From Aliivibrio fischeri ATCC 7744 = JCM 18803 = DSM 507 (lineage in GTDB: Bacteria; Pseudomonadota; Gammaproteobacteria; Enterobacterales; Vibrionaceae): a stretch of DNA of 64,000 nt. The notes under the pieces are model-generated. The model ran no database searches, had not been told where the DNA came from, and worked only from the letters and a program-made list of their open reading frames with translations. Location: positions 1,364,001-1,428,000 of the forward strand of contig NZ_CP092712.1 in NCBI RefSeq assembly GCF_023983475.1. Direction: 5' to 3'. The first letter of the stretch is position 1; the number at the start of each line of letters is the position of its first letter. Made by a program: the position numbers and the translations under genes. Below, in pieces: positions 2,784 through 20,901 of the stretch.

Positions 2784-3629
2784 CTATTCATTTAGTAAAA
2801 ATGCAGTTAGTTGATGCATTTCTGGTTCTTTTTTTAGTAACTCTTCATCTTGTGTCGTTCCCATACGACGTAAATAGTAATGTACTAAAGCTTTTCTAGT
2901 TGTGATTTCTAACTCTTTATTTTCCATAGCATAATCATCAGCAACGATAGATTGTTGTTTTTCAGATAAATAAGGGTTAGGTGTAATAGTTAATTTAACT
3001 TGGTGATTCCAATCATCATCATACTCTCGCGTATTTGGTGATTTATCCATTAAGTCAGGTTCGTTTCTAAAGCGGCTTAATACAAAATCGCGATAATTAC
3101 TTCTATCTTCACAAAATGCTCTTACATGCCACCTAATACCATCATAGACCAAGCTATGAGGAGCAATGATACGACCTCGAACTTCAGGTGTAGATAGAGA
3201 CACGTAGTCAATATCCACACGAAGATTAGCTCTTGCAGCAGCTATTAAACTTCGAACAATTTTTGGCGATATAGCCCTTTCAGGAACATTCAATACTGTC
3301 GATTGAGCTTCCCCCCAATTAAAGAATTCAAATGTTTCTTTTTGATTGTACTGTTGATGAAGCATCATAAGATATTCATGAGCAGTACCTTGAGTAAATA
3401 GAGGCTTAAAGCTATCTGCTGGTCTGTAACCTTTAATTGTCCTATCAAGGACCAATTGATCTTGGCCTGTAAGGCTAATGTACTTATTGATATCTCTAGA
3501 AGCCTGTTGGCGGCCTATATGAAAAGCGTCACATAGGTGATTTGTTGTCAGCCGGCCTTCCCACTGGGCTATGATTTCAATTAGTCGAAATCTTACTTGT
3601 TGGTCCCATTTAATATCTACTTGAATCAT
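2784..3629 (-). CDS. WYL-domain transcriptional regulator of the defence island
   Basis: A 281-residue regulator when started at the ATG at 3627-3629, which has an AGGAG-like site just upstream on the minus strand. An open extension to 3692 lacks such a site. The N-terminal third is a winged-helix DNA-binding region (residues reading GRQQASRDINKYISL). The middle holds a WYL domain (residues reading VDIDYVSLSTPEVRGRIIAP, then the conserved HVRAFCEDR and FVLSRF). WYL regulators of this build (CapW/BrxR type) repress phage-defence operons and are thought to respond to a ligand. It is divergent from the SMC operon, with an inverted repeat between them, so repression of that operon is the likely role. 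Confidence 0.85.
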   Translation of the reverse strand: MIQVDIKWDQQVRFRLIEIIAQWEGRLTTNHLCDAFHIGRQQASRDINKYISLTGQDQLVLDRTIKGYRPADSFKPLFTQGTAHEYLMMLHQQYNQKETFEFFNWGEAQSTVLNVPERAISPKIVRSLIAAARANLRVDIDYVSLSTPEVRGRIIAPHSLVYDGIRWHVRAFCEDRSNYRDFVLSRFRNEPDLMDKSPNTREYDDDWNHQVKLTITPNPYLSEKQQSIVADDYAMENKELEITTRKALVHYYLRRMGTTQDEELLKKEPEMHQLTAFLLNE

Positions 3630-3657
3630 GCTCCTGCTCACAAATGTTACATGTTGA

Positions 3658-3682
3658 TGTATACAGTATATACATGTATACA
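3658..3682. promoter_or_regulatory. Inverted repeat, candidate WYL operator
   Basis: TGTATAC (3658-3664) and GTATACA (3676-3682) are perfect inverted arms around an 11-bp spacer that itself holds the palindrome GTATATAC. It lies in the only gap between the WYL gene and the SMC operon, just upstream of the chosen WYL start. Control of both genes by the WYL protein is inferred. Confidence 0.55.
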
Positions 3683-3852
3683 AAAAGTACATATATTTAT
3701 TGTGGATATTGAGAAGGACGTATTAGATTCAGGAGCCATTGCTGTGAAAGCATAAAATTATATGGTAGGTGAAGTGTAGCCTGACTTATGTTGCCAAAAA
3801 TTTAACTGGTTGGTTTTCAATCAAGAAAACAACAAAGATTGAGAGAAATACG

Positions 3853-6800
3853 ATGATGAATGCAGGATTAACCAAAGTTATCACAATAAATTCTTATCAG
3901 AAAAACAAGATGTTTTCTGAGTATTCTTTTGACGCCCCCACTCAGATCACTGGCGGTAACGGAGAAGGCAAAACATCACTGTTAAGGCTCATTCCGTTCT
4001 TTTATGGAGCGACTGGCACGCAGATCGTCAGGAAATCGAATGTCAATAAGCCCTTTGCAGAATGGTATTTACCACACAACAACAGTTATATTGTTTTCGA
4101 GTACATTACTGCTCGTGGTCAAGTTGCTCATGTCATTTGTTATCGAAACCTTAGTACTAAAGGTGGCATTGTTTACCTTTTCGTTAAAGGTCAGTTTGAG
4201 CAATCAGTGATCATTAAACAAGGCAGCGAAGACAAGCCTTGCGCTATCGGCTGTACAAAGTTGGCCGCGGAGCTGAACGCCAACGGTTTGGATTACGAGT
4301 CGCGTATTACTAGCGTCAAAGAGTACCGAGAAATTATCCAAAACATTAATACAGGGTATTTGAGCAATCAGTTCCTCAGCTACTCTTTGTGCTCTGGTCG
4401 TCATGATGTCCGTCATATTGAAAAAATCACAGCGGCGTTGATTCAAGGTGAATTCAATATGGCCGACACAAAGGCGCTTTTCCTAGATATCCTCGAGCAA
4501 GGGAATAGCACATTAGAGTTTGGTGTGGATGCAAACAGAATTGAACAATGGTGTGATGACTACAACGGCCTAACAGCGTTCCTAGATAAAAAAGAAGCGT
4601 TCATTGAAGCTATTGCGAACAATAAGCAGATTGTCTATCTAACCACTCAGCTCGCAAGTGCCTTAATAACCATTCGTGATGCGTCTGAAAGCCTTGATGG
4701 ATCTCTTAAGAAAACCGAACAGCAGCGCTCAGATTTTCTTGAAAACAGTGACAAGCAGATTGGCGAAATTAATCAAGGTAAGCTTGACAAAGAGGTTCAA
4801 AAGAGTGCTCTTCAACGCTCTATCACAAGTATTAACTCTGAGATCGAAGTACATCACAGCAAGCTTATAACATACGAAAATAGTGGTTATCCAGAGCTGT
4901 CCGTTAAGCTAAAGCAATTGCCAGAAATGGAAGACAGGGTGGCACAACAAAGACAAAGTTACGCAGATCTTGAAACTAAGGTAAATGATGCCAAAGCAAA
5001 GTATGAGAAAGACAAACAAAGCCTTGTTAGTAAGTTCAATAAAGAAAAGTCTGACCTAACAGAGCAAAAACTTGATGCCGAGAAAGAGTGCAAGGTTAAA
5101 AAAGACAAGATAGACGATGTATATCAGCCTCAGTTAAAGGAACTGACCCAAACCCATACGAGTTTTATAGCGGATAAATCTCTGGCTCTTATGGAACATA
5201 AGGCTGAACTCGCCACTCAAAAACAGCGACTAAAGAACCCAGATATTGATGAGCTTCTTATTGTGCAGAGAGAGCAGTTGGAGTCTGAGAAGGACAGATT
5301 GCAAGAACAAGTAGACACGTTAAAACACACGACAACTGTGAGTGAGAAGGAAGGAATCAACTTACAAACTAAACGTGAAAAGCTACTCGAAAGATTAGAG
5401 GCCACTCGTCGAAATATGCGCGATGCTGAAGCCAGGTTAAAAGTAGTCAGTAACCGATTAGACCCAGATTCAGGAACCTTGTTCTCGTTCCTGGAGGCTA
5501 ATCGACAGGGATGGCAAAGCTCTCCACTTGGTCGTATTCTTACCGATGAGCTTCTGATGGACACGACACTCACGCCTTCAATGACTGATGATTCCGGTTC
5601 AATGTACGATTTATATATCGATACGAGCAATCTAGCCGATTGTAGTGTCACCAACAAAGCTGATGTAGAAGAGCAGGCTCAATTGATGGATCTTATCGGT
5701 GAGCTTGAAGATGCAGAGGCCGATTTCAATAAGAACATTTTGAAAAATGATTCGGCTGTTAAACAGTCAGCGCTTGAGTTGTCACGACTACGTAATGAGC
5801 TGCGAAATACTGAGGGTGACCTAGCACAAACTAAGATTAATCTTAAAAACAAGAAAATAGAGATTGCCCGTGCAAAAGAGGGCTTAGTCGAAAAAATTAA
5901 TGTAAGCATCAAATCGATTGAGAAAGCTATAGCCCTGATTGATCAGGAAATCTCAGTGACGCTTGAACGTTTTGAAGAAGCAAAATTAAAGTTAAACAAC
6001 GACAGGCTTACTCAAATTAGCAATGTTGAATCATCACTTGATCTCATGATTGGAGCTATCGACGAACTACTTGTAAAAAGTACTCTGACGTTAGGCGAGA
6101 ACAAACAGCGCATCAAAGCGGAATATGAACAGCGGTTGAGTTACCAAGGCATTAGTGGTGAAATCTATCAACGCTACAAAGAAGAAATTGAATTTCTTGA
6201 TAATGAAATCAAAAGCTTAAAAGTGAAGTCTCATAAAATCAAAGAATACGAGACATGGCTTGCTGTTTATGAAATGGATGACCCTAAGAGACGTGACGAT
6301 CGCAATACTAAGGTCAAAGAACTTGAAACTGTGCAACAAGAGATTAAATCTTTTGAAATTAAACTGAACGAGTTGAGAGCCAAAGCTCATAGAACCAAAA
6401 AAGAGTTTGATGAGAAGCTCTCTATCTTGAGAAACCACAAACAGCGAGCTGACAGTGCAATCTCTCGCCTAACTAACTACGTGATGTTTGAGGGTGAAGA
6501 AGGCAGCCAAGAAGCGCTCGACTATAACGGCGATTTAAATTCACTATTGAGTGATGTGGAGAGCAAACTCCCAGAGTTAGAGAGGCTTACTAAGCTACGT
6601 AAAAAAGATATACAACAGATGGAAACTATCACTCTCAATCTTGGTGACGGGGAGCTGTATCGTTTCTGGAATGAAAGCAGCCGAAACACCATTACAGAGG
6701 ATATTGTTGCTAGTGACTCTAAACGAATAGATATTCTAGAAATCATCATGAATGACATTATTCCTCAGGTGACCAGCATAACAATTGAAAGCGCGGTCAA

Positions 6801-7515
6801 CATGGGGCGTATGCTCGTTGATTTCAAGCATCGGCTACTTGGTTTCGACCGTGATATTAAAAAGCTTGGTCGTAATATCTCTGAACAAGTAAAACTCAAT
6901 AATACGTTCTCAGTGGTTGGTTCTATTGACATTAACGTTGAAAGTACACTTTCCAAGCTACAAGGTTGGGAAGATATTATTAACTTCTCTGAGATTTATG
7001 AAGAGTGGGATAAAACGGGATCTGCTGAGCTACCAACCAAAGAGTTTTACAATGCTTTAGATACGCTGACTTATCATATTAGTGCCGAGAAAGTTAAGAA
7101 GCCTACTGAGCTGTTTGACATCAAATTTGAAGTTATCGAGAACAACCAGCGTAAAACCGCCAAAACAGATAAAGATATGCGTGACTTAGCCAGTAATGGC
7201 ACGAACTTGCTTATTCAATCCATGTTGTATTTAGCGCTACTGACTCAACAACGTGGATCAAGTCGACTATCAATAACTTACCCAACAGATGAGATTGGTA
7301 AGTTGACTGCAGAAAACCAAGCCAAACTGCTTAAAATGATGGGGGCACACAACTTCAATGTCATTGCTGCTCAACCTGATGGCAATAATCGTACAGCTAA
7401 TTTATTCAAGTACCTGTACCACTTAACGCCTTACAAGAACATTTTTAATAAACCTAAAGTAAGCAAACTCGCGTTAGCCAAAGCCGCTGAAACTAGCACA
7501 GGAGTAGAAGCATGA
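3853..7515 (+). CDS. SMC/MukB-like ATPase of a Wadjet-like defence system
   Basis: A 1220-residue SMC-type ATPase if started at ATG 3853; the frame is open back to a GTG at 3769, but GAGAG upstream and the family's N-terminus favour 3853. Walker A is GGNGEGKTS near residues 34-42. Residues about 270-1000 are dominated by charged heptad-like coiled coil. The C-terminal head carries a signature-like segment (ASNGTNLL, near residue 1115) and an Asp-Glu Walker B (YPTDEIG, near 1147). Length and the GKT motif suit the DUF3584-type relatives of MukB/JetC. With the next three genes, joined by 1-4 base overlaps, it should form a condensin-like complex that recognises and helps cleave foreign, probably circular, DNA. 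The exact Wadjet subtype is unresolved. Confidence 0.8.
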   Translation: MMNAGLTKVITINSYQKNKMFSEYSFDAPTQITGGNGEGKTSLLRLIPFFYGATGTQIVRKSNVNKPFAEWYLPHNNSYIVFEYITARGQVAHVICYRNLSTKGGIVYLFVKGQFEQSVIIKQGSEDKPCAIGCTKLAAELNANGLDYESRITSVKEYREIIQNINTGYLSNQFLSYSLCSGRHDVRHIEKITAALIQGEFNMADTKALFLDILEQGNSTLEFGVDANRIEQWCDDYNGLTAFLDKKEAFIEAIANNKQIVYLTTQLASALITIRDASESLDGSLKKTEQQRSDFLENSDKQIGEINQGKLDKEVQKSALQRSITSINSEIEVHHSKLITYENSGYPELSVKLKQLPEMEDRVAQQRQSYADLETKVNDAKAKYEKDKQSLVSKFNKEKSDLTEQKLDAEKECKVKKDKIDDVYQPQLKELTQTHTSFIADKSLALMEHKAELATQKQRLKNPDIDELLIVQREQLESEKDRLQEQVDTLKHTTTVSEKEGINLQTKREKLLERLEATRRNMRDAEARLKVVSNRLDPDSGTLFSFLEANRQGWQSSPLGRILTDELLMDTTLTPSMTDDSGSMYDLYIDTSNLADCSVTNKADVEEQAQLMDLIGELEDAEADFNKNILKNDSAVKQSALELSRLRNELRNTEGDLAQTKINLKNKKIEIARAKEGLVEKINVSIKSIEKAIALIDQEISVTLERFEEAKLKLNNDRLTQISNVESSLDLMIGAIDELLVKSTLTLGENKQRIKAEYEQRLSYQGISGEIYQRYKEEIEFLDNEIKSLKVKSHKIKEYETWLAVYEMDDPKRRDDRNTKVKELETVQQEIKSFEIKLNELRAKAHRTKKEFDEKLSILRNHKQRADSAISRLTNYVMFEGEEGSQEALDYNGDLNSLLSDVESKLPELERLTKLRKKDIQQMETITLNLGDGELYRFWNESSRNTITEDIVASDSKRIDILEIIMNDIIPQVTSITIESAVNMGRMLVDFKHRLLGFDRDIKKLGRNISEQVKLNNTFSVVGSIDINVESTLSKLQGWEDIINFSEIYEEWDKTGSAELPTKEFYNALDTLTYHISAEKVKKPTELFDIKFEVIENNQRKTAKTDKDMRDLASNGTNLLIQSMLYLALLTQQRGSSRLSITYPTDEIGKLTAENQAKLLKMMGAHNFNVIAAQPDGNNRTANLFKYLYHLTPYKNIFNKPKVSKLALAKAAETSTGVEA

Positions 7516-8150
7516 AACCAGTATCACAAGTCTTAGAGTCTCTACTTAGTGGTTGTTTTATTTGCCCAGCAACTGATCGTGAAGCTTACAAGACGCTTAA
7601 AGAGGATCGTACATGCCGAGAAATCAATCAAGCGTTGACTCTTATGGGCCGCGAGCTCCAATGTACGAGTCGAACCAGTGCCTATTATGTCACCTATAAA
7701 AGTATTGACGACCACAATCGTCGTCAGGTGACCGCGTTGATGGGTAATGTACACGGTATAATTCGACCTTTGATTAAGTTCGTGGCGACAGTCAGTGAGG
7801 CTGCTCAAGTTGAAGCCGTGATGGTTGGTGGTGATGAGTTAAGTGTGCCTGTCCTGAGTGCGCAAATTCAATCGTCTCCTAGCTTGATGGAGAAACTCGA
7901 TAGTATTTATCGACTCCCGAAAGTGAGTCGAAAAAAAGTGCGTGACAGTGCAACTGATAAACTCAATGTAGTCGTCGAATTCTTGGTTAAAGAAGGGGTG
8001 GCTCATTTAGTAAATAAAGAGCGTCAGCTCTATGTGATGACAGGAAAGTTAGATTTTATTTACGAAGTGCTCGATTTCATCGATACCCATGAAAAGATCG
8101 TTGAAGCAGTTAACAAAGCAAACGAGAACCAAGAGGAGTTCGACTTTTGA
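7512..8150 (+). CDS. MukE/MksE/JetB-like subunit
   Basis: A 212-residue protein starting in an ATGA overlap with the SMC stop, which implies translational coupling. It is small and mixed-charge, with helical segments consistent with paired winged helices (for example residues reading YRLPKVSRKKVRDS and FLVKEGVAHLVNKERQLYV). In MukBEF/Wadjet complexes the equivalent subunit (MukE, MksE or JetB) dimerises and bridges the kleisin and DNA. The assignment rests mainly on size, operon position and fold-like pattern; no catalytic motif is visible. A phage-defence or plasmid-defence role is inferred from the operon. Confidence 0.65.
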   Translation: MKPVSQVLESLLSGCFICPATDREAYKTLKEDRTCREINQALTLMGRELQCTSRTSAYYVTYKSIDDHNRRQVTALMGNVHGIIRPLIKFVATVSEAAQVEAVMVGGDELSVPVLSAQIQSSPSLMEKLDSIYRLPKVSRKKVRDSATDKLNVVVEFLVKEGVAHLVNKERQLYVMTGKLDFIYEVLDFIDTHEKIVEAVNKANENQEEFDF

Positions 8151-9448
8151 TGAGCTCTCAAAATAATGGGAAACATGGTGGTGTCAATCACATGCTTAGC
8201 TTAATCAGCCAAGCAAAGGACACATTAACGCATGTTTTTGAAAATGGCACGATACGTGAAACTCATGAGAACGCCAACGACCTACGTAAATTAAAAGAAG
8301 CCCGTGTTGTTATCGTGACAAGCCGCGGCTACCGTGTGCATCCTAAAATGGAGGCACTGATGAACTATTTCCTTGAAACGGAAGCAAGTTCGTTTCTTGG
8401 GACTCAACACGCTGAGCGCATTCCAGAAATTCAGAGTCTCGCACAAGAATATCTTGAAGCTAAATTAAATGGCAAAAGAGAGGAAGAGGCTGATCGGTTT
8501 AATAGCTTAGAAGGTGTCGTTTATGAAATCACAATGGATTTGCAAGAGTCTTGTCGTCGCCTAAGAAACCGTATCAGTTATGATTTTGGTTATGGTCATA
8601 CGCTCGCTCAAAAACAAAAAGAGAATCAAGTCGCGATAGAGCAAGCTGAAAAGCTTGTTAGTGGCATGAAAGCTTTTTCTTTTAAGTTGTTGAGTGAAAT
8701 GGCTGGAGATAACTCAGAGCTCAATACCTTGTTTTGTACTGAAATGCACAGTGCTATTCGTAGTTGCCAGCAAGAGCTCGGCTCTATCCTAATTCAACTT
8801 CGAGCTTTGATGCTGAAGTATCGTAACCGAGAGCGTGATAAGGACCTGATCAATGCCTTTGAACGGTTTATTGATCAAGAGCCACATTGGACACCAAGTG
8901 ACGATTTGATTTTGCCCGATGAGATAGCAAAGTACGATGGCATACCGACGTTTTGGCTTTCAGAGCCTATTCAATTTGCGCATCACCCAAATCCTGATGA
9001 TATGGAGCAAGAGCTGGAATTAGCCGATATTGTTGAGAAAATTACGGTGCAGCCTGTTGAAAAAGAAGAACTTCCGGTTGTTGAAGAGGCTGAGCGCCGA
9101 GAATTGGCACTTGATGTTGAAATACAAGAGCTGATTGAAGCGGACATTGATTCTCATTGTGATACCTTTTTTGCTGAAGCCTTTATTGGCAAGGGAAAAA
9201 CCAGCATTTCCGCTTTGGAATATTATGAGCAAATCAATAATGATTTGCCGGAAGATCTTGAACAGCTTACTTGCGCTAAAGATGTGTGGCTATTTAGCGT
9301 GCTTAATTTCCATAGTTCAATGCTTCCCGAAGATAGCAAAGGCTTTACCGTTGAGCCTATCGGGTCTTATACCTATTTAGCAAAAGGTAGCAATATAGGT
9401 TATGGCAACCTTCACTTAGAAGATGTATCTATAGCGAGGAAACTGTGA
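8150..9448 (+). CDS. Kleisin-like subunit (MukF/MksF/JetA-like)
   Basis: A 432-residue protein from the ATG at 8150, in a TGATG overlap with the previous stop; an in-frame TTG one codon earlier is less likely. The N-terminal 120 residues resemble a winged helix, with a recognition-like segment LRKLKEARVVIVTSRGYRV. Helical, charged regions follow and would suit a kleisin neck and middle domain. The C-terminal 130 residues are acidic and end in a compact domain (residues reading NDLPEDLEQLTCAKDVWLF). In MukBEF-type complexes the kleisin links the two SMC heads. The call is by context, length and layout; primary sequence similarity to MukF is not obvious by eye. Confidence 0.6.
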   Translation: MSSQNNGKHGGVNHMLSLISQAKDTLTHVFENGTIRETHENANDLRKLKEARVVIVTSRGYRVHPKMEALMNYFLETEASSFLGTQHAERIPEIQSLAQEYLEAKLNGKREEEADRFNSLEGVVYEITMDLQESCRRLRNRISYDFGYGHTLAQKQKENQVAIEQAEKLVSGMKAFSFKLLSEMAGDNSELNTLFCTEMHSAIRSCQQELGSILIQLRALMLKYRNRERDKDLINAFERFIDQEPHWTPSDDLILPDEIAKYDGIPTFWLSEPIQFAHHPNPDDMEQELELADIVEKITVQPVEKEELPVVEEAERRELALDVEIQELIEADIDSHCDTFFAEAFIGKGKTSISALEYYEQINNDLPEDLEQLTCAKDVWLFSVLNFHSSMLPEDSKGFTVEPIGSYTYLAKGSNIGYGNLHLEDVSIARKL

Positions 9449-10290
9449 GTAGAATTATTGATAATATAACCAGTAGTGATTTAAATCGGCTTAAACAACT
9501 TTTTTCTCCAGCGAAAGTTAAAGACGGTACCAATGTAGTGCTGAGTGGCGTTTTTGAGATTTTTCACCGCGACTTTAGTGTTGGAATTACCAGTGGTGAA
9601 AAGTTACAGCTAACGTCTAGAGATATACGTCAAATTAGAAAAGTAATTAAAGAACAATCAGGCTTTGATCTTTTAACTGATCCTATTCCAAATTCTCGAA
9701 CGGATATCGCTCAGTTCTTTCCAAATGAGAAGTTAAGCTCAAGGCCAGTCAAAGACAAGGTAATTAAAGTTTATGGGATTTTGTCCACGAACATAAATAA
9801 TAAAACATACGACTTAGAAGAAGGCATGAACATTGAGATAGCTCTAAGTCATTTGAAGAGCATTGAGCACAGCCAAGTTGTTATTGTTGAAAACTATGAA
9901 GCGTTTTCTAAGTTTAGATTGGTGAAAACGGATATGGAGCCTAATCCTCTTATCGTCTACCGAGGAGATAAGGATTGTAGCGTGATATCAAAAGAAATTG
10001 CCCTAACTTTTCCAGATATAGAACTTGTCGCTTGGTTTGATACAGATCCTAAAGGTATTTCTTTAGCCTTTGCATCAGGTGCTGATTATATGCTTGTTCC
10101 AGATTTATCAAAAGAGGTGCTTAAACAACATGGGCGCTCAGATCTATTTAGTAATCAGTATCAAAATTGGGAACGAGTATCAGTACTAATTCCTTCTAAT
10201 CTAGAGTTATTAATGTCTAATGTAGAAAAAGGGATAACCCAAGAATCAATAATGGCAAACGATATAAGTGTGAGTCTATATAAAATCTAG
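9445..10290 (+). CDS. JetD-like Toprim nuclease subunit
   Basis: A 281-residue protein with a GTG start in a GTGA overlap with the kleisin-like gene. The C-terminal half has the two parts of a Toprim metal site: VVIVENYEAF near residues 146-155 (the conserved Glu) and FDTDPKGI near 197-204 (the DxD). The ENxxxF and DxDxxG arrangement is that of JetD/MksG, the nuclease that cuts plasmid DNA in Wadjet systems. The N-terminal half (residues 1-140) would be the DNA-binding arm. It is the last gene of the operon, which supports the effector role. The subunit order here (SMC, E-like, F-like, Toprim) differs from the classical jetA-B-C-D order. Confidence 0.75.
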   Translation: MSRIIDNITSSDLNRLKQLFSPAKVKDGTNVVLSGVFEIFHRDFSVGITSGEKLQLTSRDIRQIRKVIKEQSGFDLLTDPIPNSRTDIAQFFPNEKLSSRPVKDKVIKVYGILSTNINNKTYDLEEGMNIEIALSHLKSIEHSQVVIVENYEAFSKFRLVKTDMEPNPLIVYRGDKDCSVISKEIALTFPDIELVAWFDTDPKGISLAFASGADYMLVPDLSKEVLKQHGRSDLFSNQYQNWERVSVLIPSNLELLMSNVEKGITQESIMANDISVSLYKI

Positions 10291-10449
10291 TTATGAGATT
10301 GTTCTAAATAGAGCATCACGAATTAGTTAAACAATAAAGATTTGTTATTAAAGTTATGCTAGAGCTAGTGTGGCTTTTTTATCTAATTTTTACCATTCCT
10401 TCTCCAATATCAATGTTTCCTCTCTAATTTAGTGTACAATATACTGCAA

Positions 10450-10669
10450 AAGTGCGATTTTACTTATTCAGATGACAAGTTATTAGAACTTGCTAAGCGC
10501 ATGAAGGTTATAAAGCCCAATACCCAGACTGGAGCCAACGAGATGATATCAAAGCCTCATTAAAAGTAGAGCTAATTGTATTGTTGCATGAGTTTGGTTA
10601 GTCACCTGTGATGATGTGTACAGGGGCGTGCTAGAGTAGGTAGAGAATTTTAAGAAAGGAAAAAGTTAA
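10450..10669 (+). pseudogene. C-terminal fossil of a type I restriction HsdR subunit
   Basis: Broken reading frames in the 378-bp gap before the RADAR operon still spell the end of a type I restriction motor subunit. From 10465: YSDDKLLELAKRMKV. Then, after a frame change near 10512: AQYPDWSQRDDIKASLKVEL and LLHEFG, an in-frame TAG at 10599, then after another frame change VENFKK. HsdR C-termini typically end with such YPDW..R, LL..FGYPP and LEQ-EN-F segments. Nothing else of hsdR, hsdS or hsdM remains. The TAA at 10667-10669 overlaps the next ATG. Bases 10291-10449 hold no gene that I can see. Confidence 0.7.
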
Positions 10670-11352
10670 TGAGCAGTGATAATAATCAGAAGCAAACTGG
10701 TGATGTGGCAATTGATGAAATCAATTATTACTTAAAACAATATGAAGATCGTCGAGATGGCTTTCGTGGCAATCATAAACTGACGCGTAGATTGTCGATT
10801 TTGAGTGTTTTTTGGGCGGTGCTTTCTTTAGCTATATTATTCAGTGATGCTGTTCTTAAAGTAGACCTGGTTAAACTCAATCCTTATCAATTTGTTGGTT
10901 TTGATGTGGTTAACTGGCATTTAATTATATTTTGGCCAATAGTGATAGTTTTCCTCTCTATTAAAACGTTCAGCAAATTCTTTAAAGCACTTTGGTTATT
11001 GGAATTTGGTGTGTTTTTAGCCTTTTATTCTAAGGAAATGATTGCATTGTTTGCTGTAGTTCATATAACGCTGTTTGTTACATGTTATGCACTGAACAGA
11101 ATGAATGGTTATACAAGAGGTTGGAGTCGAAATCGATTAGCAACGGAACATCTTGAACGATTAAAAAGGGAATATCAAATTGCCATCAAAGGGCAAAAAA
11201 AAGAGTTTGTGCGTATTGAACAAGAGAATACGCTCGCAAAGTTATCAGATATCGATACAAAGAATAGAGAAGCAACACATGCTGACATTGTTGGTGATTA
11301 TATAGCGGTAAATAATGGCGCATTTAGTTGGATTAAAGGTTTAAAAAAGTAG
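10669..11352 (+). CDS. Membrane accessory protein of the RADAR operon (SLATT-like)
   Basis: A 227-residue integral membrane protein. Hydrophobic segments lie near residues 43-59, 82-98, 104-120 and 124-143. A basic, helical N-terminal stretch (DRRDGFRGNHKLTRRL) precedes the first, and a long cytoplasmic helix follows the last. RADAR loci often carry such a protein, either a 2-TM SLATT protein or a Csx27-like one; four segments fit neither cleanly, so the family is uncertain. It sits 7 bp before rdrA on the same strand. AAGGA lies upstream of the ATG. A role in membrane association or abortive infection is inferred from context only. Confidence 0.6.
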   Translation: MSSDNNQKQTGDVAIDEINYYLKQYEDRRDGFRGNHKLTRRLSILSVFWAVLSLAILFSDAVLKVDLVKLNPYQFVGFDVVNWHLIIFWPIVIVFLSIKTFSKFFKALWLLEFGVFLAFYSKEMIALFAVVHITLFVTCYALNRMNGYTRGWSRNRLATEHLERLKREYQIAIKGQKKEFVRIEQENTLAKLSDIDTKNREATHADIVGDYIAVNNGAFSWIKGLKK

Positions 11353-11359
11353 GCTAGTT

Positions 11360-13872
11360 ATGACAAATATTTTAAAATTAAATTACAAAAAAGCTGAATA
11401 TCGAGATGATTATTCAGATTCTAGTGGTGAGTTTTGGCAGTGCGAGGCTCAAGAAAGTTTAATAAATAAACTTGAAATTACATTGCGAGAAGCAAAAGAA
11501 TATAAAAAAATAGGGAGAAAGATAATAAAAAAACATGGTTATCTCATAATGCAATTCTTGTTTTTGGTCAGAGAGGTACAGGGAAAACTGTATTTTTGAG
11601 AAATTGTGAGAAGTTATGGAGCAAAGCTTGTAAGAAAGAAAAACAAAAAAACATACAGGAAGAAGAACTTAAGTTTCTGAATGTGATTGATCCAACAATG
11701 CTTGTAAATAACGACCATTTTTCTAATGTTATAATTGCTCAAATTTATTACGTAGTTGAAAAAAAGATTAAAAGTTTAAGTGGATGTCATGGTCTAAGTT
11801 CCGTTAGTGAACAAGAAAAGACGCATTTTTATAATTCATTAAAAAAATTAGCAGATGCACTTGGAAAGAAAGATGATTTTAATGGTCATTCAGGAATTGA
11901 TAAAATTCTACAATATAATTCTGGTATTCAAATTGAAAGTTATTTCCATTTATTTATAGAGTCGGCAATTAATTTATTGGGGTGTCAAGCTTTGGTGCTA
12001 CCAATTGATGATGTGGATATGGCACTTGGGCGAGCATTTGAAGTTGTAGATGATGTGCGTCGTTTACTCGGGTGTCCATATATTATTCCTATAGTTAGCG
12101 GTGATATGCGTCTATATGAACAAATGACAAATGTTCATTTTGATAGCAATGCTTATGATAATAAATCTAAAAATGATGATTTAATTGCTGAAGGGATCTT
12201 AGTATCAAAAGAGCTGACTACATCTTATTTAACAAAAGTTTTTCCTAATCAAATGAGAATTGGTTTACGACCGATAACACAAATTATACAAAATCTAAAC
12301 ATTGTAAATAATGAAAATGACATTGGATTGAAAATATCAGAATATTATAGCCTGATATTTAACCGATTTTATTTTCTATGTTCAAATGAAGAGGTTATAA
12401 ATAATTGGCCTGAACCAGAGTCTGCACGAGAACTAACCCAGTTAGTACGTTCTATTAATCCTGAAGTGTTACGTGATAAAAGTATCAATCCGGTATGGAT
12501 GGCTTACCAAAGTTGGGCTACACAAAAGAAAAACGGTGTTTCTTTTACTAATGCAATGTCATGGTTTACGCTTAATAATTTAGATAAGGGCTCTTCTTTT
12601 AATATTGAATCTTTAATTGCATTTAACCCTAAAATGCAAATGAGCAAAGATCGATATCCTTGGGCTAACAAATGTTTTTTTGGTTCTCAAAAAGATTCTT
12701 TAAACTCAATGTTTTCATTACAACCCAAGCAAGTGTCAGCTCAACTAAATGGCAATTTATCTATACTGGAGAGTGCATATAATGAAAAAAGTTATACTTT
12801 ACGAAGTATGCCACCCTATGAATTTTTTGATGATAAAAAGTATATTACACAAGGTTCGATAAAAAATACAAACTCTTTATTATCTAACGAAAGTAAAATT
12901 AACGCTAATATATTACTCGATGTTTATACATATGGTGACTATTATTCAACATTATCAAATACATATCAGTATGTATTTTGTAGTCGTGCATTTGAATTGA
13001 TCTTATTTTCATTCGTAAATAAGTCTATAGATATCGAAAAAGATATTTATAATATTCTTGGGCGTAGACCATTTTATTCAATATTTAATGCAAGTCCAAC
13101 TAAAGTTATTCAGGATGGCGATTATGAAGAAGAGGTTGAAAAAGAAAGTGATTCTAAGCGATCTTCGGCAGAGATTCTGGCAGGTGAAATTAATATATGG
13201 AAAATAAATAATAGAGAGTTCTTTGACGAAATAAATTCAAGTGATCTTATATCTATATTTTCATTTATGTTTAATAAGACATTTTCTGCGCTAAATTTAT
13301 ATAAATCTAATAAAACTTATACCGATGAGCATTTAACAGATTTAGCAAGACGTTTTGAATTGATTCTTGTTAATTCAGCAATGACAGCATCAATTAAAGG
13401 CAATGCAATTAATGCTAATGTTGCTCAAACAGATAATTATAGTACGTTAAGAAATTATAAGGAATTTGAGAAGTATGACCGAACAATTACTAGAAATAAT
13501 GAGAAATTAAAAGAAGAAAATATTGCTGATGGTTTTTGTGTGCGTTTTATAGATGTACTTTGGAAACATCCAATATTTGTTATTAATAAATCAAAAGATA
13601 CTGAACCTTTGGAGCCACTATTTTCTTTAGGGAGAGGAGAGTTGGAAAGCAAATTAGCGAAGTTAAGGAAAGATTTTGAACTTAAAGATCTTAAGCTAGT
13701 ATCTGCACTTAAAAAGAGATTAGATGGATTTGATGAAAAACAGAAAGATAAATTAATTTCTTTTATTAAAGAAAATAAAATAACAAACAAAACTTCATTA
13801 GTTGATCCAAAAGAGTTAAATGCTAACTTATTAAAAGCAATACAGTCATATATAGAGGGTGATGATGCTTAA
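11360..13872 (+). CDS. rdrA: RdrA-like RADAR ATPase, frameshifted before Walker A
   Basis: The large ATPase of a RADAR operon, read in two frames. The first frame starts at ATG 11360 and covers about 57 residues up to an A-run at 11527-11533; left unshifted it stops at 11597. The second frame runs on to 13872. Joining them by a -1 shift gives about 837 residues and restores an intact Walker A, GQRGTGKT, at 11566-11589. A later Asp-rich strand (LVLPIDDVDMALG, near 12000) is the Walker B candidate. In RADAR, RdrA is a heptameric AAA+-like STAND-family ATPase that works with the deaminase RdrB. Starting at TTG 11596 would delete Walker A, so that start is rejected. The gene is very AT-rich compared with the SMC operon. 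Confidence 0.75.
11527..11533 (+). other. A7 slippery run at the rdrA frame change
   Basis: Seven A residues followed by C, phased as A AAA AAA C in the upstream frame. This is a perfect X XXY YYZ heptamer for -1 slippage, and slippage here leads straight into the Walker A frame. A lost base in an A8 run, real or from sequencing, would give the same picture. A second A7 run at 11504-11510 is less well phased. Confidence 0.6.
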
Positions 13873-16392
13873 AGTTAGTGATGAGAGTATCGCTTATGCT
13901 TCTTTACTTGCTTCTGATCGTTTTTTATTTAATGAGGTTGGTATTGAAAATAAAAAATTCTATTACAAGAAAAGAGTATTTTTGACTATCAACCATATAT
14001 ATTAAGGATGCTAAGAAATGAGGATATTACAGCTCTTATTTGTTCATTGAATCTTGATAAGATTAATTTGAAAAAACTATTATCATTATTAGCTGAAAAG
14101 TATTTAATTTGGCAAGGTGATCGTTTCGAAGTTAAGTTAAGTTATCTTGAGGAGTGGTTAGAACTAGCCTCTTTAATTGATGTTAGTTGGATTATTGCAA
14201 AAGCCTATAGTGATTTAGCTTACGATTGTGATATTAGTGAGCAGAATATTATAACATGTATTAAAGATAACCAGTGCCCTACAGCTCTTCAACAATTAAA
14301 AGGAAAGAAAGGTTTTGCTGATAATCATGTCCACCTTGGTGGACATGGATATACTGGTCCATCTCTACTAAGTTTTTCATTATATGGGGTAGAGGTTACT
14401 GGAAAAATTAAATGGCCAAGAAGACCTGAAAGCACTTTATTTGAGAGTGAACGATATAAAAAGAATGATTTACCTAAGTGGAGCGCCTTATTAGGTGATA
14501 ATTTAGCAGCTTTTGCGTTTGATCATGATTATAAACGTGTAAATAAATTGCATATAAAGCCTCATATTAATATTGAGTTCAAAGGTGATGCGATTTCATA
14601 TATTGAACGTGGTGAGTGTGCTAATTTTTCTCAGCATTGTTTATCACAATCTCATTGTTTATTAATTCCATCAGCGAATCGTTGGCTTTTATTTTGTACT
14701 GGCTTAATTTCTTTAAGTAAAGAAGCAGATAAAGCTCTAGATACTTATATTCGTATAAGCAATGTTTTGCGTAATTATATGATTGTAATGGGGGTTGGAT
14801 TAGGTCAATTTGTAGAATCTTTTCATTTTCCACTTCGTAAGAGTAGACATTTAGGCTCACAAGATATTGTCGGTTTGGATGCTTTTAAATCAGATATATC
14901 AAAAGAAACAGTAAGGGAATTTAGAGTATCACCAAATATTGCTATTGGGAGTAATAGTTTTCCAGCAGATCCAAAGTCGTTGAAGGTTAGTTTAGAGGCA
15001 CTCTTTAAAGAATCATTAGCAGAAAGGGTCCACTTTGTTTTGCATTTTACCAGAAGCGGCAAAAGCGAAGACAAAAGACAGTCTAAGTTTAGGGCTAATA
15101 TTAAGAATCAAGTTAGACTTCTTCAGCAATTTCATGGTTCTGTTTCTTTTTCTGATACCGAGATAAAAGCATTTCAAATTGAAGATGAATCATTAAAAGT
15201 TGATTTGCGTAAAGCAATACGCGGGTATGATGTAGCAGGTAATGAAAACGAACTACCAATTGAGGTATTTGCTCCTGCTCTACGGGTTTTGCGTTCAGCT
15301 AAACATTCATCACAGAGTCTATTTACAACTCGTCATCAGAGACCTTTTTTAACTATTCATGCAGGTGAAGATTATAGTCATTTACTTTCTGGATTAAGAG
15401 CAATCGATGAAGCTGTGTATTTTTGTGATTATCAGTCAGGAGATCGAATTGGTCATGGACTAGCACTAGGGGTCTCGCCTAGTTCGTGGGCACAAAGGCA
15501 ACAAACGGCTTATGTTACAATTGGTGAACATTTAGATAATCTTGTTTGGTGCTTTCAGAAGTCACTTGAAGTTATTCAGAAAGTGCCTAAATTTACTGGT
15601 GTTTTACATTTACTTCAAGAGAAAATTAATTTCTGGTCTGGCTATCTTTACGAAGAAGAACATTCATGTCGAAGTTTATACGAAGCTTGGAAGTTGAGAC
15701 GAAATTGCCCTTATGCGTTAAATCTTGATGAGTTATCTAATGATAAGCCACCAGTTATAGATGGTAAGAACCCGTTATATCGTGATTGGATAATAGATTT
15801 TGACCAAATTCAATGCAACGCTAGTAGCCAAAAGGCATTCGTACTTTGGCAAAAATACATACTAGCTGAGTTAGATGTCCACTTTTTTAAGAGACGTGAA
15901 AAATCAGTAATTATTAACTGTAATCCCAAGCAAGGTTTTGAACCTTTTGGTTATAAGCATGGGACATACTTTGACTCTATATCAGCAGCAGAATTAGAGT
16001 TGTATGAAGCAATCCAAGATCTACAAATAGAAAAGTATGGGTCTCAAGAAATAATATTTGAAGCTTGTCCAACATCAAATATCTATATTGGGCGCTTTGA
16101 GTATTATCATGAGCATCCTATTTATCGTTGGAATCCACCTATTGAATCTTGGCTAAACGAGGGAGAACGTTTTAACAAGTTTGGTTTAAGACGTGGCGCA
16201 ATTTCAGTATGTGTAAATACCGATGATTCAGCCTTAATGCCTACATCAATTCAGAATGAGCATAGAGTATTACAGCGAGCAGCTGTTGAGTATTATGGCG
16301 TTGGATCAAATAAAGCGGAAGACTGGATAGATCGTATTCGTCAAAAGGGTGTTGATGTATTCGAAGAGAATCACTTGGATTGGGTGAATTAG
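13865..16392 (+). CDS. rdrB: RdrB-like adenosine deaminase of RADAR, frameshifted near its 5' end
   Basis: A divergent adenosine/AMP deaminase-fold protein. The likely start is ATG 13865, overlapping the rdrA stop. That frame (MLKVSDESIAYASLL...) ends at 14002, while the main body is open in the -1 frame from 13954 to the stop. Joining near a T-run (13979-13983) gives about 842 residues. Metal and catalytic motifs are present: HVH (14326-14334), HAGED (15358-15372), GHG (15451-15459) and NTDDSA (16216 on). In RADAR, RdrB forms a large shell and deaminates adenosine nucleotides when phage infect. All catalytic motifs lie after the frame change, so a shorter protein from ATG 14008 could still be active. 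It is followed by mcrB after a short gap. Confidence 0.85.
13979..13983 (+). other. T5 run at the rdrB frame change
   Basis: Upstream frame: GTA TTT TTG ACT. Downstream frame: TTT GAC TAT CAA. One extra T, or a -1 slip, fuses KKFYYKKRVF to DYQPYILRMLRN. An A6 run at 13952-13957 is the other possible site. The direction of shift is the same as in rdrA. Confidence 0.5.
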
Positions 16393-16436
16393 AAGCACTA
16401 AACATTAGTGGTAGTTAGTATAAATGTGAGTTGGTT

Positions 16437-18614
16437 ATGAATGATTTAAAAGTTGCATGGGATGAGTTTATAGAAAGATGGCCTATTAGCACTGTGCAAA
16501 ATATGACGTTGGAGCAATATGTTTCTACTGGTGATAAGGATACTTTCACATACTGGGTAGAGACAAAAACAGGTATCTTAGCAAATATAAAAGGTTCACC
16601 ATCGACAAAATTTGGTATCTATAAGCAAAAAGGAATACCAAAAGAACGAAACGGAATGAGCCATGGAGAAGTATATTCTTGGCAATCAAGGTTTGGTGGT
16701 AATGAAGCAGATGCATTTTTTAATGTGAAAAAGCATATCTTAAATATTATTGAGGCTGCCCAGCGTGGTGATCTTGAAATGATTGATAATGTGGAATTAG
16801 CTCCATTATTTAAATGGAAAATAGCATTTTTATACCAAGATACCGTGTCACCAAAGATCTTGAATATTTTCTCACTTGATAAACTTCAAGAGATAACGGG
16901 ACTATCTGGGCGAGGTTATTCTTATCCTCAATATTACGATGAAATTATGAAGAGTTATGATCCTAAAAGGGTTCAAAATGTAGCTGAATTTGGTCGTCAG
17001 ATTTGGAGAGAGTTAGATAATAATCAAGAAATGGATAATACAGAGAGTTCTAATATGAAGATATGTCAAAGTTCTTTAAATACAATTTTATATGGTCCTC
17101 CAGGTACAGGTAAAACTTACACCACAATTAATAAAGCATTGCAGATTGTGGCTCCTGATTTTTATCTTAAAAATAAAGATGACCGTGAAAAATTGAAATG
17201 TCGTTTTGATGAACTCCTGAATAATAATCGCATTGGATTTGTGACTTTTCATCAAAGTTTTAGTTACGAAGATTTTGTTGAAGGCCTTAAAGCATCAACG
17301 ACAGAAGGTAAGCAGATTAGCTATGATGTTGAAGATGGTATCTTTAAAAGTATGTGTAATTCTGCAAGCGTAAAAGCCACAGTTAATACTGAACAACAAG
17401 CGTTAGATATATCCAATAGAAAAATCTGGAAAATGTCATTAGGGGATACTTCTGGAGAAGATACTTTTATTTATCAGCAGTGTATTGAAAATAATTATGT
17501 TCTTTTAGGCTATGGTTATGACATAGATTTCTCTAATACATCTAATCGTAAAGAGGTAATTGAAACCTATCGTACTAATGAAGTTATTATTGACAAAGAG
17601 AGTAGTGATTACAGAGTCACATCGGTAAATAACTTTAAGAACGAAATGAGTATTGGTGATTTAGTTGTCATTTCTGATGGCAATCGTAAGTTTAGGGCGA
17701 TTGCTGAAATTACGAGTGATTATATCTTTGATGAAACTTTAGTGAGTGATAGTGGATATTCTCAAGTAAGAAAAGTAACTTGGCATCGAGTGTATGAACC
17801 GTCATTACCTGTAGATGAGTTATTCAAAAAGAACTTATCTCAAATGACATTATATCGCCTTTATGGCGCAACTATTGATTTAGATAAGTTACAGGGTATC
17901 TTTTCATTACCTTCGATAGAAGACAAAACAGAAATAAGCAATGATCGTGTACTTATCATTGATGAAATTAACCGAGGTAATATCTCTAATATCTTTGGTG
18001 AGCTAATTACATTGATTGAACCAAGTAAGCGTAGTGGTGGCACGGAATCTTTGTCTGTGAAGTTACCGTATTCAAAAGAGACGTTTTCTGTACCATCAAA
18101 CTTACACATCATAGGTACGATGAATACCGCAGATAAATCACTGGCACAGCTTGATATCGCACTTCGTCGTCGCTTTGAATTTGTCGAAATGATGACAAAT
18201 TACGAGCTACTCAAAGATATTCCTAATATCGAAGGCATTAACGTTGCTAAGCTTGTAAAAACCATGAATCAACGTATTGAATTATTGTATGACCGAGAGC
18301 ATACAATTGGTCATAGTTTATTTTTACCGTTACTTGGTAACCCAAGTCTACAATTATTAGCAGAGATCTTTGAGTTACAGATCTTACCGCTATTGGAAGA
18401 GTACTTCTTTGAAGATTGGGAACGTGTAGGGCAAGTACTTGGTGATCATTTAAAAGATAACCACGAGTTACGTTTTGTTATTGAACAATTTGGTAATAGT
18501 AAGATCGCTGAGTTAATGGGCGATGATTGGGAAGTGCCAGGAATACAGCCTTATTGCCGTAATCAAAAAGCATTTAAAAATCCTCAAGCGTATATCGGTG
18601 TTTATACTCGATGA
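16437..18614 (+). CDS. mcrB: McrB-like AAA+ GTPase of a modified-DNA restriction system, with inserted EVE/PUA-like domain
   Basis: A 725-residue motor subunit of a type IV restriction system. ATG 16437 is chosen over the in-frame TTG at 16431. The N-terminal 200 residues form a target-reading region of unknown fold. Walker A (YGPPGTGKT) is near residues 219-227 and Walker B (VLIIDEINRG) near 505, followed by the arginine-rich sensor segment ALRRRFEFVEM. Between the two Walker motifs lies an insert of about 130 residues (roughly 328-460) with an EVE/PUA-like pattern: KIWKMSLGD, YVLLGYG, IGDLVVISDG and FRAIAEI. EVE domains can bind modified bases. It overlaps mcrC by ATGA. The usual role is GTP-driven translocation that activates McrC cleavage. 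Confidence 0.88.
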   Translation: MNDLKVAWDEFIERWPISTVQNMTLEQYVSTGDKDTFTYWVETKTGILANIKGSPSTKFGIYKQKGIPKERNGMSHGEVYSWQSRFGGNEADAFFNVKKHILNIIEAAQRGDLEMIDNVELAPLFKWKIAFLYQDTVSPKILNIFSLDKLQEITGLSGRGYSYPQYYDEIMKSYDPKRVQNVAEFGRQIWRELDNNQEMDNTESSNMKICQSSLNTILYGPPGTGKTYTTINKALQIVAPDFYLKNKDDREKLKCRFDELLNNNRIGFVTFHQSFSYEDFVEGLKASTTEGKQISYDVEDGIFKSMCNSASVKATVNTEQQALDISNRKIWKMSLGDTSGEDTFIYQQCIENNYVLLGYGYDIDFSNTSNRKEVIETYRTNEVIIDKESSDYRVTSVNNFKNEMSIGDLVVISDGNRKFRAIAEITSDYIFDETLVSDSGYSQVRKVTWHRVYEPSLPVDELFKKNLSQMTLYRLYGATIDLDKLQGIFSLPSIEDKTEISNDRVLIIDEINRGNISNIFGELITLIEPSKRSGGTESLSVKLPYSKETFSVPSNLHIIGTMNTADKSLAQLDIALRRRFEFVEMMTNYELLKDIPNIEGINVAKLVKTMNQRIELLYDREHTIGHSLFLPLLGNPSLQLLAEIFELQILPLLEEYFFEDWERVGQVLGDHLKDNHELRFVIEQFGNSKIAELMGDDWEVPGIQPYCRNQKAFKNPQAYIGVYTR

Positions 18615-19912
18615 TAAGCAAAAAGAGCAATCCTATTGTTAAGGTGCGTGAGTTTGGTTTGTTGCTCAATGGCGGCGACAAATCAGACGTTGACTGCCAT
18701 TCAATAACGAAAAAAGCATTTGAATGGTTATTAGTGAACGGACAAAGTGCTAATGAAAAATCAGTTGAATTAGTTAGAGTCAAAAAATACGGCAAAGACA
18801 TAGCACTTCAAGTGGTTAACTATGTTGGAGTGATAGAAACGCCGTGTGGTACTCGTATTGAGATTCTACCTAAGATATCAGATCAACATGATTCAGAGAC
18901 TGCGAAGAAAGTATTATTAAAAATGCTTTCAACGGTAAACAAGCTGTCTATGCAGCAATTTGAACAATCTTCTTTAAAGACAGTAAAACAGCCATTGTTT
19001 GAAGTGCTAATAGGGTATTTTTTAAAAGAGGTCGCTGATGTTGTTAAACGTGGTATCCGTAGTGAGTATAAGCGTGTAGAAGCAAAAACACCGTATTTGA
19101 AAGGGCAACTTCAAACATCAAAGCAGCTTCGTGAGCGTCCGGGGTGCCAAAATCGTTTTAACGTATCTTATGATCAATTTTCTTCTGATCGTTCAGAAAA
19201 TAGATTAATGCATTCAGCATTGAAGCAAGTACTGAAATGGACAAAGAGCAATGAGAATCATCGTTTAGGTAAAGAGTTATTATTTGTCTTTGATGAGATC
19301 CCATTATCATCGAACTATTCTTTAGATTTCAGAAAGTGGTCTGTTGATCGCTCGTTAGTTCACTATCGGAGTGTGAAGCCATGGTGTGAGCTAATTTTGA
19401 GTTATCAATCTCCAATTGCTTTGTCTGGTGCGCATAAAGGGATTTCATTTTTATTCCCAATGGAAACTCTATTTGAGCGATATGTGGCGATAAAACTACA
19501 AAAAGATCTACCATCACATTTGAAGTTAAAAACACAAGCAAGCAGTCAGTCTTTGGTTTCTCATACTCCACCTAATACAGAGAAAGAGCAGGGTTGGTTT
19601 AAACTAAAACCAGATCTTGTCATTAGTGAAAAGAAAACCAATAAAGTGGTTTGTGTCGCTGATACTAAATGGAAGCGGATATACGAGAATCAAGGAACTG
19701 CTAAAGATAAATACGGAATAAGCCAATCCGATATGTATCAAATGTTTGCTTATGGTCATAAATACTTAGAAGGCGAGGGAGTAGTGTATTTAATTTATCC
19801 TAAGCATGCTCAGTTCAATGATTCGTTAGAGTCATTTAAATTTAGTGAAAAGTTAACGGTTAAAGCAGTCGCATATGATTTAGATTTAGATAAGTGTGAT
19901 GCTTATTTTTAA
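18611..19912 (+). CDS. mcrC: McrC-like endonuclease subunit
   Basis: A 433-residue partner of McrB, started in an ATGA overlap. The C-terminal PD-(D/E)xK nuclease site is visible as KPDLVIS near residue 333 and VADTKWKRI near 350, which is typical of McrC. The N-terminal part carries the conserved YVGVIETPCGTRIEILPKIS segment used for McrB contact. McrBC cleaves DNA containing methylated or otherwise modified cytosine between two recognition half-sites. It closes the block of defence genes; 83 bp separate it from the convergent toxin gene. Confidence 0.9.
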   Translation: MISKKSNPIVKVREFGLLLNGGDKSDVDCHSITKKAFEWLLVNGQSANEKSVELVRVKKYGKDIALQVVNYVGVIETPCGTRIEILPKISDQHDSETAKKVLLKMLSTVNKLSMQQFEQSSLKTVKQPLFEVLIGYFLKEVADVVKRGIRSEYKRVEAKTPYLKGQLQTSKQLRERPGCQNRFNVSYDQFSSDRSENRLMHSALKQVLKWTKSNENHRLGKELLFVFDEIPLSSNYSLDFRKWSVDRSLVHYRSVKPWCELILSYQSPIALSGAHKGISFLFPMETLFERYVAIKLQKDLPSHLKLKTQASSQSLVSHTPPNTEKEQGWFKLKPDLVISEKKTNKVVCVADTKWKRIYENQGTAKDKYGISQSDMYQMFAYGHKYLEGEGVVYLIYPKHAQFNDSLESFKFSEKLTVKAVAYDLDLDKCDAYF

Positions 19913-19995
19913 AATAAGGGCAATAATTGCATCGGTTTGGTTGTGCTAGCTAGACTAGGTAGGTACTTTATATTGATTAGCCCAATCGAATAAGG

Positions 19996-20274
19996 CTAAT
20001 CAATCGGAAACTTTTGCTTTTGGTGGAGGACGCGCATTATTCTAATGCTCTCTCCATCAATCATGTATGAAACAATCATTGATACTTCAGGAATAATGAG
20101 TAGTCGTCCTCTGATATTTTCACGTTGCACACCCATTTGAGGTTGATCTAACAAAGCCTCAACCGTCTGTTCGATGGTGTTATCTGTTCTTTCAGCGACA
20201 CTTGGATTAAAGTCGTAAAGAAATTCAAATATTTTCTCACGATCATTTAAAGACTCTTCTTCCCAAAAGATCAT
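19996..20274 (-). CDS. RelE/ParE-family toxin
   Basis: A 92-residue type II toxin. The pattern FWEEESLNDREKIFEFLYD at the N-terminus, the central L-x-x-x-P-x-M-G-x-x-R-E segment, and a C-terminal strand (IRIMRVLHQKQKFP) match the RelE/ParE superfamily. Whether it cuts mRNA on the ribosome or poisons gyrase cannot be read from the sequence. It directly follows its antitoxin gene with no gap, as usual for antitoxin-first operons. Confidence 0.88.
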   Translation of the reverse strand: MIFWEEESLNDREKIFEFLYDFNPSVAERTDNTIEQTVEALLDQPQMGVQRENIRGRLLIIPEVSMIVSYMIDGESIRIMRVLHQKQKFPID

Positions 20275-20553
20275 TTATCTTTGACCTCGAATTCGAGCTT
20301 TACGCTCAGCCATAGTTTCTTTTGCTTCATTATGACTAATAAAGTTAGTTTTACCTGAATCGAATTTATCGAAAGCTAAATTCACTTGTTCAGTTAACCA
20401 TTGATCGTGAGATAATGCTTTACGCTGTTGCTCTGCCATTTGCTCTGTCAGCTCTCGGCAAGCATCACTTAGAGTACGGCCTTGGCTCTCAGCAAATTGT
20501 TGAGCTAATAGCTTAACTTCATCATTAACACGGAATTGAATTCTAGTATCCAT
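20275..20553 (-). CDS. RelB/DinJ-like antitoxin
   Basis: A 92-residue antitoxin. The N-terminus DTRIQFRVNDEVKLLAQQ followed by GRTLSDACRELTEQMAEQ is the ribbon-helix-helix pattern of the RelB/DinJ family, which binds the operon's own promoter. The charged C-terminal tail (EAKETMAERKARIRGQR) would wrap the toxin. Its stop directly abuts the toxin start, and a palindrome sits upstream. Confidence 0.88.
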   Translation of the reverse strand: MDTRIQFRVNDEVKLLAQQFAESQGRTLSDACRELTEQMAEQQRKALSHDQWLTEQVNLAFDKFDSGKTNFISHNEAKETMAERKARIRGQR

Positions 20554-20571
20554 AATTTAGCCCTTAAAATA

Positions 20572-20581
20572 TGTACGTACA
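20572..20581. promoter_or_regulatory. Palindromic operator of the toxin-antitoxin operon
   Basis: TGTACGTACA is a perfect 10-bp palindrome, 19 bp upstream of the antitoxin start. Autorepression by the ribbon-helix-helix antitoxin is inferred. Confidence 0.55.
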
Positions 20582-20901
20582 AATGTTAGCACAATATTTA
20601 GTGGTAGCAACTAACAATCGGTTTAAGTACGACAAACACAGTGTTGTTTTTCGATATCAAAAAGTATCATGGAAGCGAACAATGCTGGGTTTATCCCATA
20701 AATAAATGAATCAATGGAAATATTTCATCACTGACACACAATGTAATTAAGTTAATGTTGAGAATAACTATTTAATGAGCAATAAAATGCCATAAACTCA
20801 GCAGAATCAAATGATAAAATCATTTATTACTTGTGCATACATCTTATTTTTATGACAATACTCGAAAGTTTTTATCAAACAGATGAAGTTGTGAGAAAAG
20901 T
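20582..20901. other. Non-coding stretch between toxin-antitoxin operon and LysM lipoprotein
   Basis: This AT-rich stretch holds the divergent promoters of the toxin-antitoxin operon and the lipoprotein gene. I see no gene, no tRNA-end duplication and no IS end here, so it gives no clear right boundary for the defence island. Confidence 0.5.

Follow-up and report, generated by a model that had tools for sequence, protein, structure and literature searches.

Both genes of the RADAR defence module in Aliivibrio fischeri ATCC 7744 read one base short in an A-rich tract near their 5' end, and we favour, at a probability of about 0.6, a recent double inactivation of the module by these two single-base losses. 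The window analysed here, a stretch of 64,000 nucleotides, corresponds to positions 1,364,001–1,428,000 of contig C1 in the host genome (G000; 4.50 Mb in two contigs), and rdrA, rdrB and the gene directly ahead of them lie on its forward strand. Judged by profile matches, the module is a normal two-gene RADAR, with a predicted RdrA ATPase and a predicted RdrB adenosine deaminase: the PADLOC models match with E values of 7.7e-166 (RdrA) and 5.6e-243 (RdrB), and the two genes stand in tandem on the same strand, as the RADAR gene pair does. A search of the host genome for a second copy found RdrB matched once and RdrA at a single place.

The first-pass annotation had described rdrA as split ahead of its Walker A motif, and so we find it. 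The frame that opens with ATG at 11360 ends at a TGA (11597–11599) after 79 amino acids (first piece, 11360–11599). Its first ~49 codons correspond to the beginning of the RdrA proteins of G094 (Photobacterium piscicola) and G099, and the Walker A sequence GQRGTGKT (11566–11589) is encoded, as had been claimed, in the -1 frame, outside the frame of the start codon in which a RADAR ATPase should carry it. The second piece is a 758-aa ORF from TTG 11596 (11596–13872), in a frame open from 11506; a protein started at this TTG would be without Walker A. An internal start giving an active ATPase was rejected, since the -1 frame holds no ATG, GTG or TTG from TAA 11503 to Walker A, the first being TTG 11596, past the motif.

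The annotation had further placed the break at a phased A7 run. Such a run is indeed present at 11527–11533 and is read in phase with the ATG frame as A AAA AAA C, but the break lies upstream of it. Alignment of the DNA with that of G094 and G099 maps the lost base to another A7 run, at 11504–11510, which is separated from the phased run by 16 bases. The PADLOC RdrA profile, whose positions 2–58 match 11363–11518 in one frame and whose positions 57–750 match from 11503 onward in the other, is blind to this alignment and agrees with it, changing frame at 11503–11518. Furthermore, between the two runs the -1 frame encodes KNREKDNKK, similar to ENRKQNNNK and ENRKKDNNK of the relatives, while the ATG frame encodes KIGRKIIKK, which is unlike them. 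The suggestion that an A had been lost is thus supported by comparison with the relatives, at the upstream run, and a homopolymer error, which had also been proposed, is unlikely for the reasons given below.

A second break, overlooked in the first pass, is found in rdrB. The first piece of this gene (13865–14005) comprises 46 codons and ends at TAA 14003–14005; the second piece is a 794-aa ORF in the -1 frame (14008–16392), which starts at ATG 14008. Where the window has the tract AAAAAATT (13952–13959), G094 and G099 carry one extra base. No single frame therefore encodes a full-length RdrB, and the conserved deaminase region sits in the long frame. The 48 N-terminal residues of the P. piscicola protein that the product of ATG 14008 would miss include the SDRLL region, common to many RdrB proteins. 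In the E. coli system, an N-terminal insertion of RdrB participates in one interface of the dodecamer, RdrB assembly depends on insertions and neither RADAR protein is dispensable for defence (PMC9994260). As an observation on the local arrangement, the stop of the first piece lies just ahead of ATG 14008, making termination followed by restart conceivable.

The breaks stand out against otherwise continuous genes in the relatives. The nearest RADAR copies, those of P. piscicola (locus L023) and G099, have the two genes arranged as in the window, and homology to the P. piscicola module extends over 11271–16385 at 93.5% DNA identity. Their RdrA proteins, of 835 and 832 aa, are 89% (G094) and 87% (G099) identical to the long frame in the window; both modules are continuous, whereas the window copy is one base short in each gene. 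We scanned 29 relative loci (L014–L042), of which 26 remained as distinct after removal of two duplicates and of L038, which lies at a contig end; the two Myxococcales loci in the scan (L041, L042) are weak matches. An uninterrupted RdrA-like ORF of 830–973 aa is present in 25 of these 26 loci, and the same 25 hold RdrB-like ORFs of 801–927 aa; the exception is a decayed copy in G166. Sampling across the order gave an RdrA match in 11 of 394 genomes, and stops within the match were reported only for G000 and G166; one further genome, G286, had matches on two contigs. A class-wide survey for RdrB, with matches in 3 of 369 genomes of which two were short and weak, was uninformative. Searches for relatives in viral contigs yielded two pattern matches, neither confirmed, those in plasmids two records, neither spanning 80% of the query, and those in E. 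coli genomes nothing by megablast, the sole mode run there.

These comparisons bear directly on the proposal, made in the first pass, that a conserved -1 frameshift is programmed into rdrA and restrains RADAR. Its appeal lies in the in-phase heptamer with an SD-like element next to it, and in the toxicity of RdrB on overexpression in E. coli (PMC9994260). The toxicity reported there belongs however to RdrB and not to RdrA, and all but one of the distinct relative loci are uninterrupted, the remaining one being decayed. None of the 17 homologues in the RdrA alignment has an in-frame stop; all 17 are continuous. The shift site itself is absent from the two closest relatives, which read AGAAAA or AGAAAG in place of the SD-like hexamer and have a C inside the second A-run. 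A run of at least six A precedes Walker A in 6 of the 17 homologues, at differing places. GeneTack takes as its criterion that the site be conserved across at least five genes (PMC3711429). A conserved programmed shift, for which continuous homologues and an absent A-run had been named beforehand as refuting, was accordingly rejected, and we give it hardly any credence. Separately, the RdrA gene of an uncultured Shewanella (L037) contains an A7 at 4647–4653, ahead of Walker A and in phase by position; this gene is continuous, so that slippage there would throw the ribosome out of frame.

The decayed copy in G166 (L022, 7926–10568) resembles that of the window in that rdrA is shifted to the -1 frame at Walker A. 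Unlike the window copy, it also contains an in-frame TAA, and rdrA is followed only by a 127-aa ORF at the place where rdrB is expected; for these reasons we rejected it as a second programmed case. That another RADAR copy has decayed with a -1 shift, together with the separate loss in rdrB, argues for inactivation in the window as well.

Both losses fall in A/T tracts, where sequencing and assembly errors occur, and selection on rdrA and rdrB looks intact, as it would if the isolate were continuous in both genes and two bases had been dropped from its sequence. We estimated how often reading frames are in error in this assembly by comparing 384 kb of G000 with 400 kb each of two close relatives, G002 and G005, all as assembled sequences; ORFs aligned over at least 90% were counted, and gaps less than 20 nt from the start or less than 40 nt from the end were left out. 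Of 325 ORFs of G002, 256 were comparable in G000 and only four of these showed a net frame difference, in every case no more than 38 nt from where the ORF begins. The identical test on G005, which covered C1:1262501–1662500 (L076–L095), put 42 of 269 G002 ORFs out of frame, which suggests that the G005 assembly is error-prone. In the reverse direction, 4 of 254 G000 ORFs differ in frame from G002. The gaps recorded between G000 and G002 are at most 70 nt away from the beginning of an ORF, or mostly cancel one another in a few divergent genes, or concern a single 309-nt ORF in which a base is absent from G002. If no interior event is assumed in ~262 kb, the upper rate implies that at least two events would fall in the 5033-base module with P ~0.0016; counting all four frame events as errors raises this, by our own arithmetic, to ~0.003. 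The 254–256 comparable ORFs contain 416 A/T runs with a length of at least six, a background to be read with the caveat that rdrA is richer in A-runs than an average gene. Within rdrA, further A7/T7 runs (at 11645, 11759, 11841 and 12675) are read in frame. Given the low frame-error rate of G000 against G002, an assembly error is an unlikely cause of both breaks, and we judge the possibility that the isolate is in truth intact to be small.

Since both breaks sit in mononucleotide tracts, run length at 11504–11510 might also vary and toggle RADAR among cells by phase variation. With seven and six A, however, the runs are short, and the close relatives have them interrupted; the comparison set for this point holds one genome per species. 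We consider such switching very unlikely.

Replication slippage in short A/T tracts probably produced real deletions in rdrA and rdrB alike. Barring recoding, RdrA started at ATG would end in the Walker A region in the wrong frame, translation from TTG 11596 would give an RdrA devoid of Walker A, and translation from ATG 14008 an RdrB devoid of its first 48 residues. With both proteins truncated in this manner, the RADAR of this isolate is probably inactive or strongly reduced, as far as can be predicted from the reading frames.

Apart from the breaks, both genes show the marks of constraint. Changes assigned to the window lineage comprise 32 synonymous and 19 nonsynonymous ones in rdrA downstream of the break, and 35 and 12, respectively, in rdrB; the long frames of both genes are free of stops. 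With omega taken from the relatives (0.19 for rdrA, 0.13 for rdrB), the share of the branch evolved neutrally is at most 3.7% in rdrA and 1.8% in rdrB (95% bounds, which become looser if omega is set to zero). The substitution pattern thus indicates that both genes have evolved under purifying selection. Together with the stop-free long frames, this means that the breaks are recent or that the proteins still work. The test has no power to separate the two; as such, constraint counts against double inactivation insofar as it is equally expected if recoding still makes the proteins.

The sequence following the rdrA break indeed invites the latter thought. Downstream of the lost base, the gene reads AGGGAG, nine nucleotides, A AAA AAA C: an SD-like hexamer (11512–11517), missed in the first pass and absent from G094 and G099, precedes the in-phase X XXY YYZ heptamer (11527–11533) at nearly the ~10 nt typical of a dnaX-type -1 frameshift. 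Ribosomes might pause at AGGGAG, slip by -1 on A AAA AAA and so regain the Walker A frame; a minority of the products would then be full-length RdrA in which some eight residues of a variable linker are changed. For rdrB, a partial rescue might come from translation restarting at ATG 14008 or from a weaker slip on T AAA AAA. Such a disrupted gene, still yielding protein as a pseudo-pseudogene, would leave a low dose of RADAR, rdrA having gained the dnaX-like signal after or around the base loss.

The anatomy resembles that of a known signal. In E. coli dnaX, too, an SD-like AGGGAG stands ~10 nt before a slippery heptamer that is made of A only and encodes Lys-Lys, and a dnaX-based construct has AGGGAG ~10 nt before A AAA AAG (PMC11162774). 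The rdrA heptamer differs from that of dnaX in ending in A rather than G, a downstream stem-loop is unsupported, the arrangement is specific to one lineage and slippage on it is a prediction. Published efficiencies for A AAA AAA are close to 50% in vitro in the dnaX context (PMC6787027) and 10% for a seven-A cassette (PMC3711429); without stimulators, PMC4066793 lists it only as above 0.10% in E. coli.

Two further precedents are instructive. Pseudo pseudogenes as described by Baranov et al. 2005 (PMC1088944) likewise have a disrupted ORF beside a frame-restoring A-run, but involve transcriptional slippage at nine A or T, whereas the runs at the rdrA break are only seven long. The frame correction of atpB in the I-iota case (PMC8254509) also concerns a one-base indel in an A-stretch that is partially corrected; there, however, a base was gained and not lost, and one-A losses in the atpB stretch left ~5% activity in E. 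coli.

How often would such an arrangement appear by accident? Among 9819 single-base losses simulated in four intact rdrA genes, 4.5% placed a heptamer in phase, 0.7% added a 4-base SD match and 0.03% (3 losses) a 5-base match, the SD test having been picked after the motif was seen. Adding rdrB genes leaves three cases of heptamer and 5-base match in 19590 losses; when the losses are confined to A/T runs of at least five, the heptamer occurs in 10.7% of 84 and the SD match in none. Over the ORFs of G000 as a whole, the corresponding values from 39,749 losses are 1.3%, 0.15% (4-base) and 0.01% (5-base). An in-phase heptamer by itself is therefore unremarkable. Its combination with the SD-like hexamer beside the break is rarely met by chance, with the motif chosen post hoc, and is the second point that counts against plain inactivation.

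Evidence on the remaining parts of a rescue is divided. The residues altered by slippage would fall into a stretch that is variable among the 17 homologues and that, in the structure modelled for P. piscicola RdrA, covers a helix end and a loop; the P. piscicola models are modest (mean pLDDT 72.5 and 79.2) and were used for helix ends only. Strong purifying selection also fits a protein that is still made. Folding, on the other hand, fails to reveal a convincing stimulator downstream: three segments that begin past the A7 reach z scores of -1.1, -0.9 and +0.7 against shuffled sequences, and a longer one, 11505–11610, with z -2.8, pairs the SD itself and would hide it. A promoter scan at the 5' end gave 3 sites against 6.1 in shuffles and was not used. 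Weighing further against a rescue are the low values for unstimulated slippage and for atpB, the absence of the motif from the relatives and its selection after the fact. In rdrB no comparable signal is found: AAGG touches ATG 14008, and restart there would cost the conserved SDRLL region. A separate rdrB break of this kind argues that the module is simply failing. Altogether, residual RdrA made by slippage is plausible as a rescue in one lineage only; the ribosomal pausing and slipping outlined above, as an account of the locus, we consider unlikely if worth keeping in sight, and a functioning low-dose module equally so. Recent double inactivation remains the reading we prefer.

The region ~2805–20785, beside two tRNA-Val genes, has no aligned counterpart in the close relatives G005 and G002, where other DNA occupies the site, and is rich in defence genes: it contains a WYL-domain gene, four Wadjet-like genes, a small gene for a putative membrane protein, RADAR and a McrBC-like pair. 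The RADAR module is best read as mobile. The four genes at 3769–10290, for which we presume the names Wadjet and JetA–D, have Pfam matches to DUF3584 and DUF7281, and one of the four matched a PADLOC model, weakly (JetB, E 0.00097). They are 90–93% identical to counterparts in G010, G012 and G099, and in G099 they also lie near RADAR. Directly upstream of rdrA stands an intact 227-aa gene (10669–11352), membrane protein-like by its sequence, for which Pfam and PADLOC searches gave no match. Both close relatives have a counterpart in the same place (L003, 531–1256; L004, 4004–4702), sharing little DNA with it except at the 3' end; the gene may be a known RADAR accessory. In the McrBC-like pair (16431–19912), the first protein has an N-terminal match to the PADLOC model PD-T4-1 (E 3e-28, residues 10–156).

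Among the papers searched, none joins RADAR and rdrA with frameshifting and phage; programmed ribosomal frameshifting and phage defence systems have been mentioned together elsewhere.

In summary, if the two losses have plainly inactivated RADAR, this locus would capture a mobile defence module in the course of being switched off by single-base losses, with its neighbours still readable, and it would call for caution with surveys, where RADAR matches may stem from dead systems. Should slippage go on yielding RdrA, the frameshift mutation would lower, not abolish, a defence with a deaminase that is toxic on overproduction in E. coli (PMC9994260). A true rescue would make rdrA a defence gene that has become translationally throttled by mutation.
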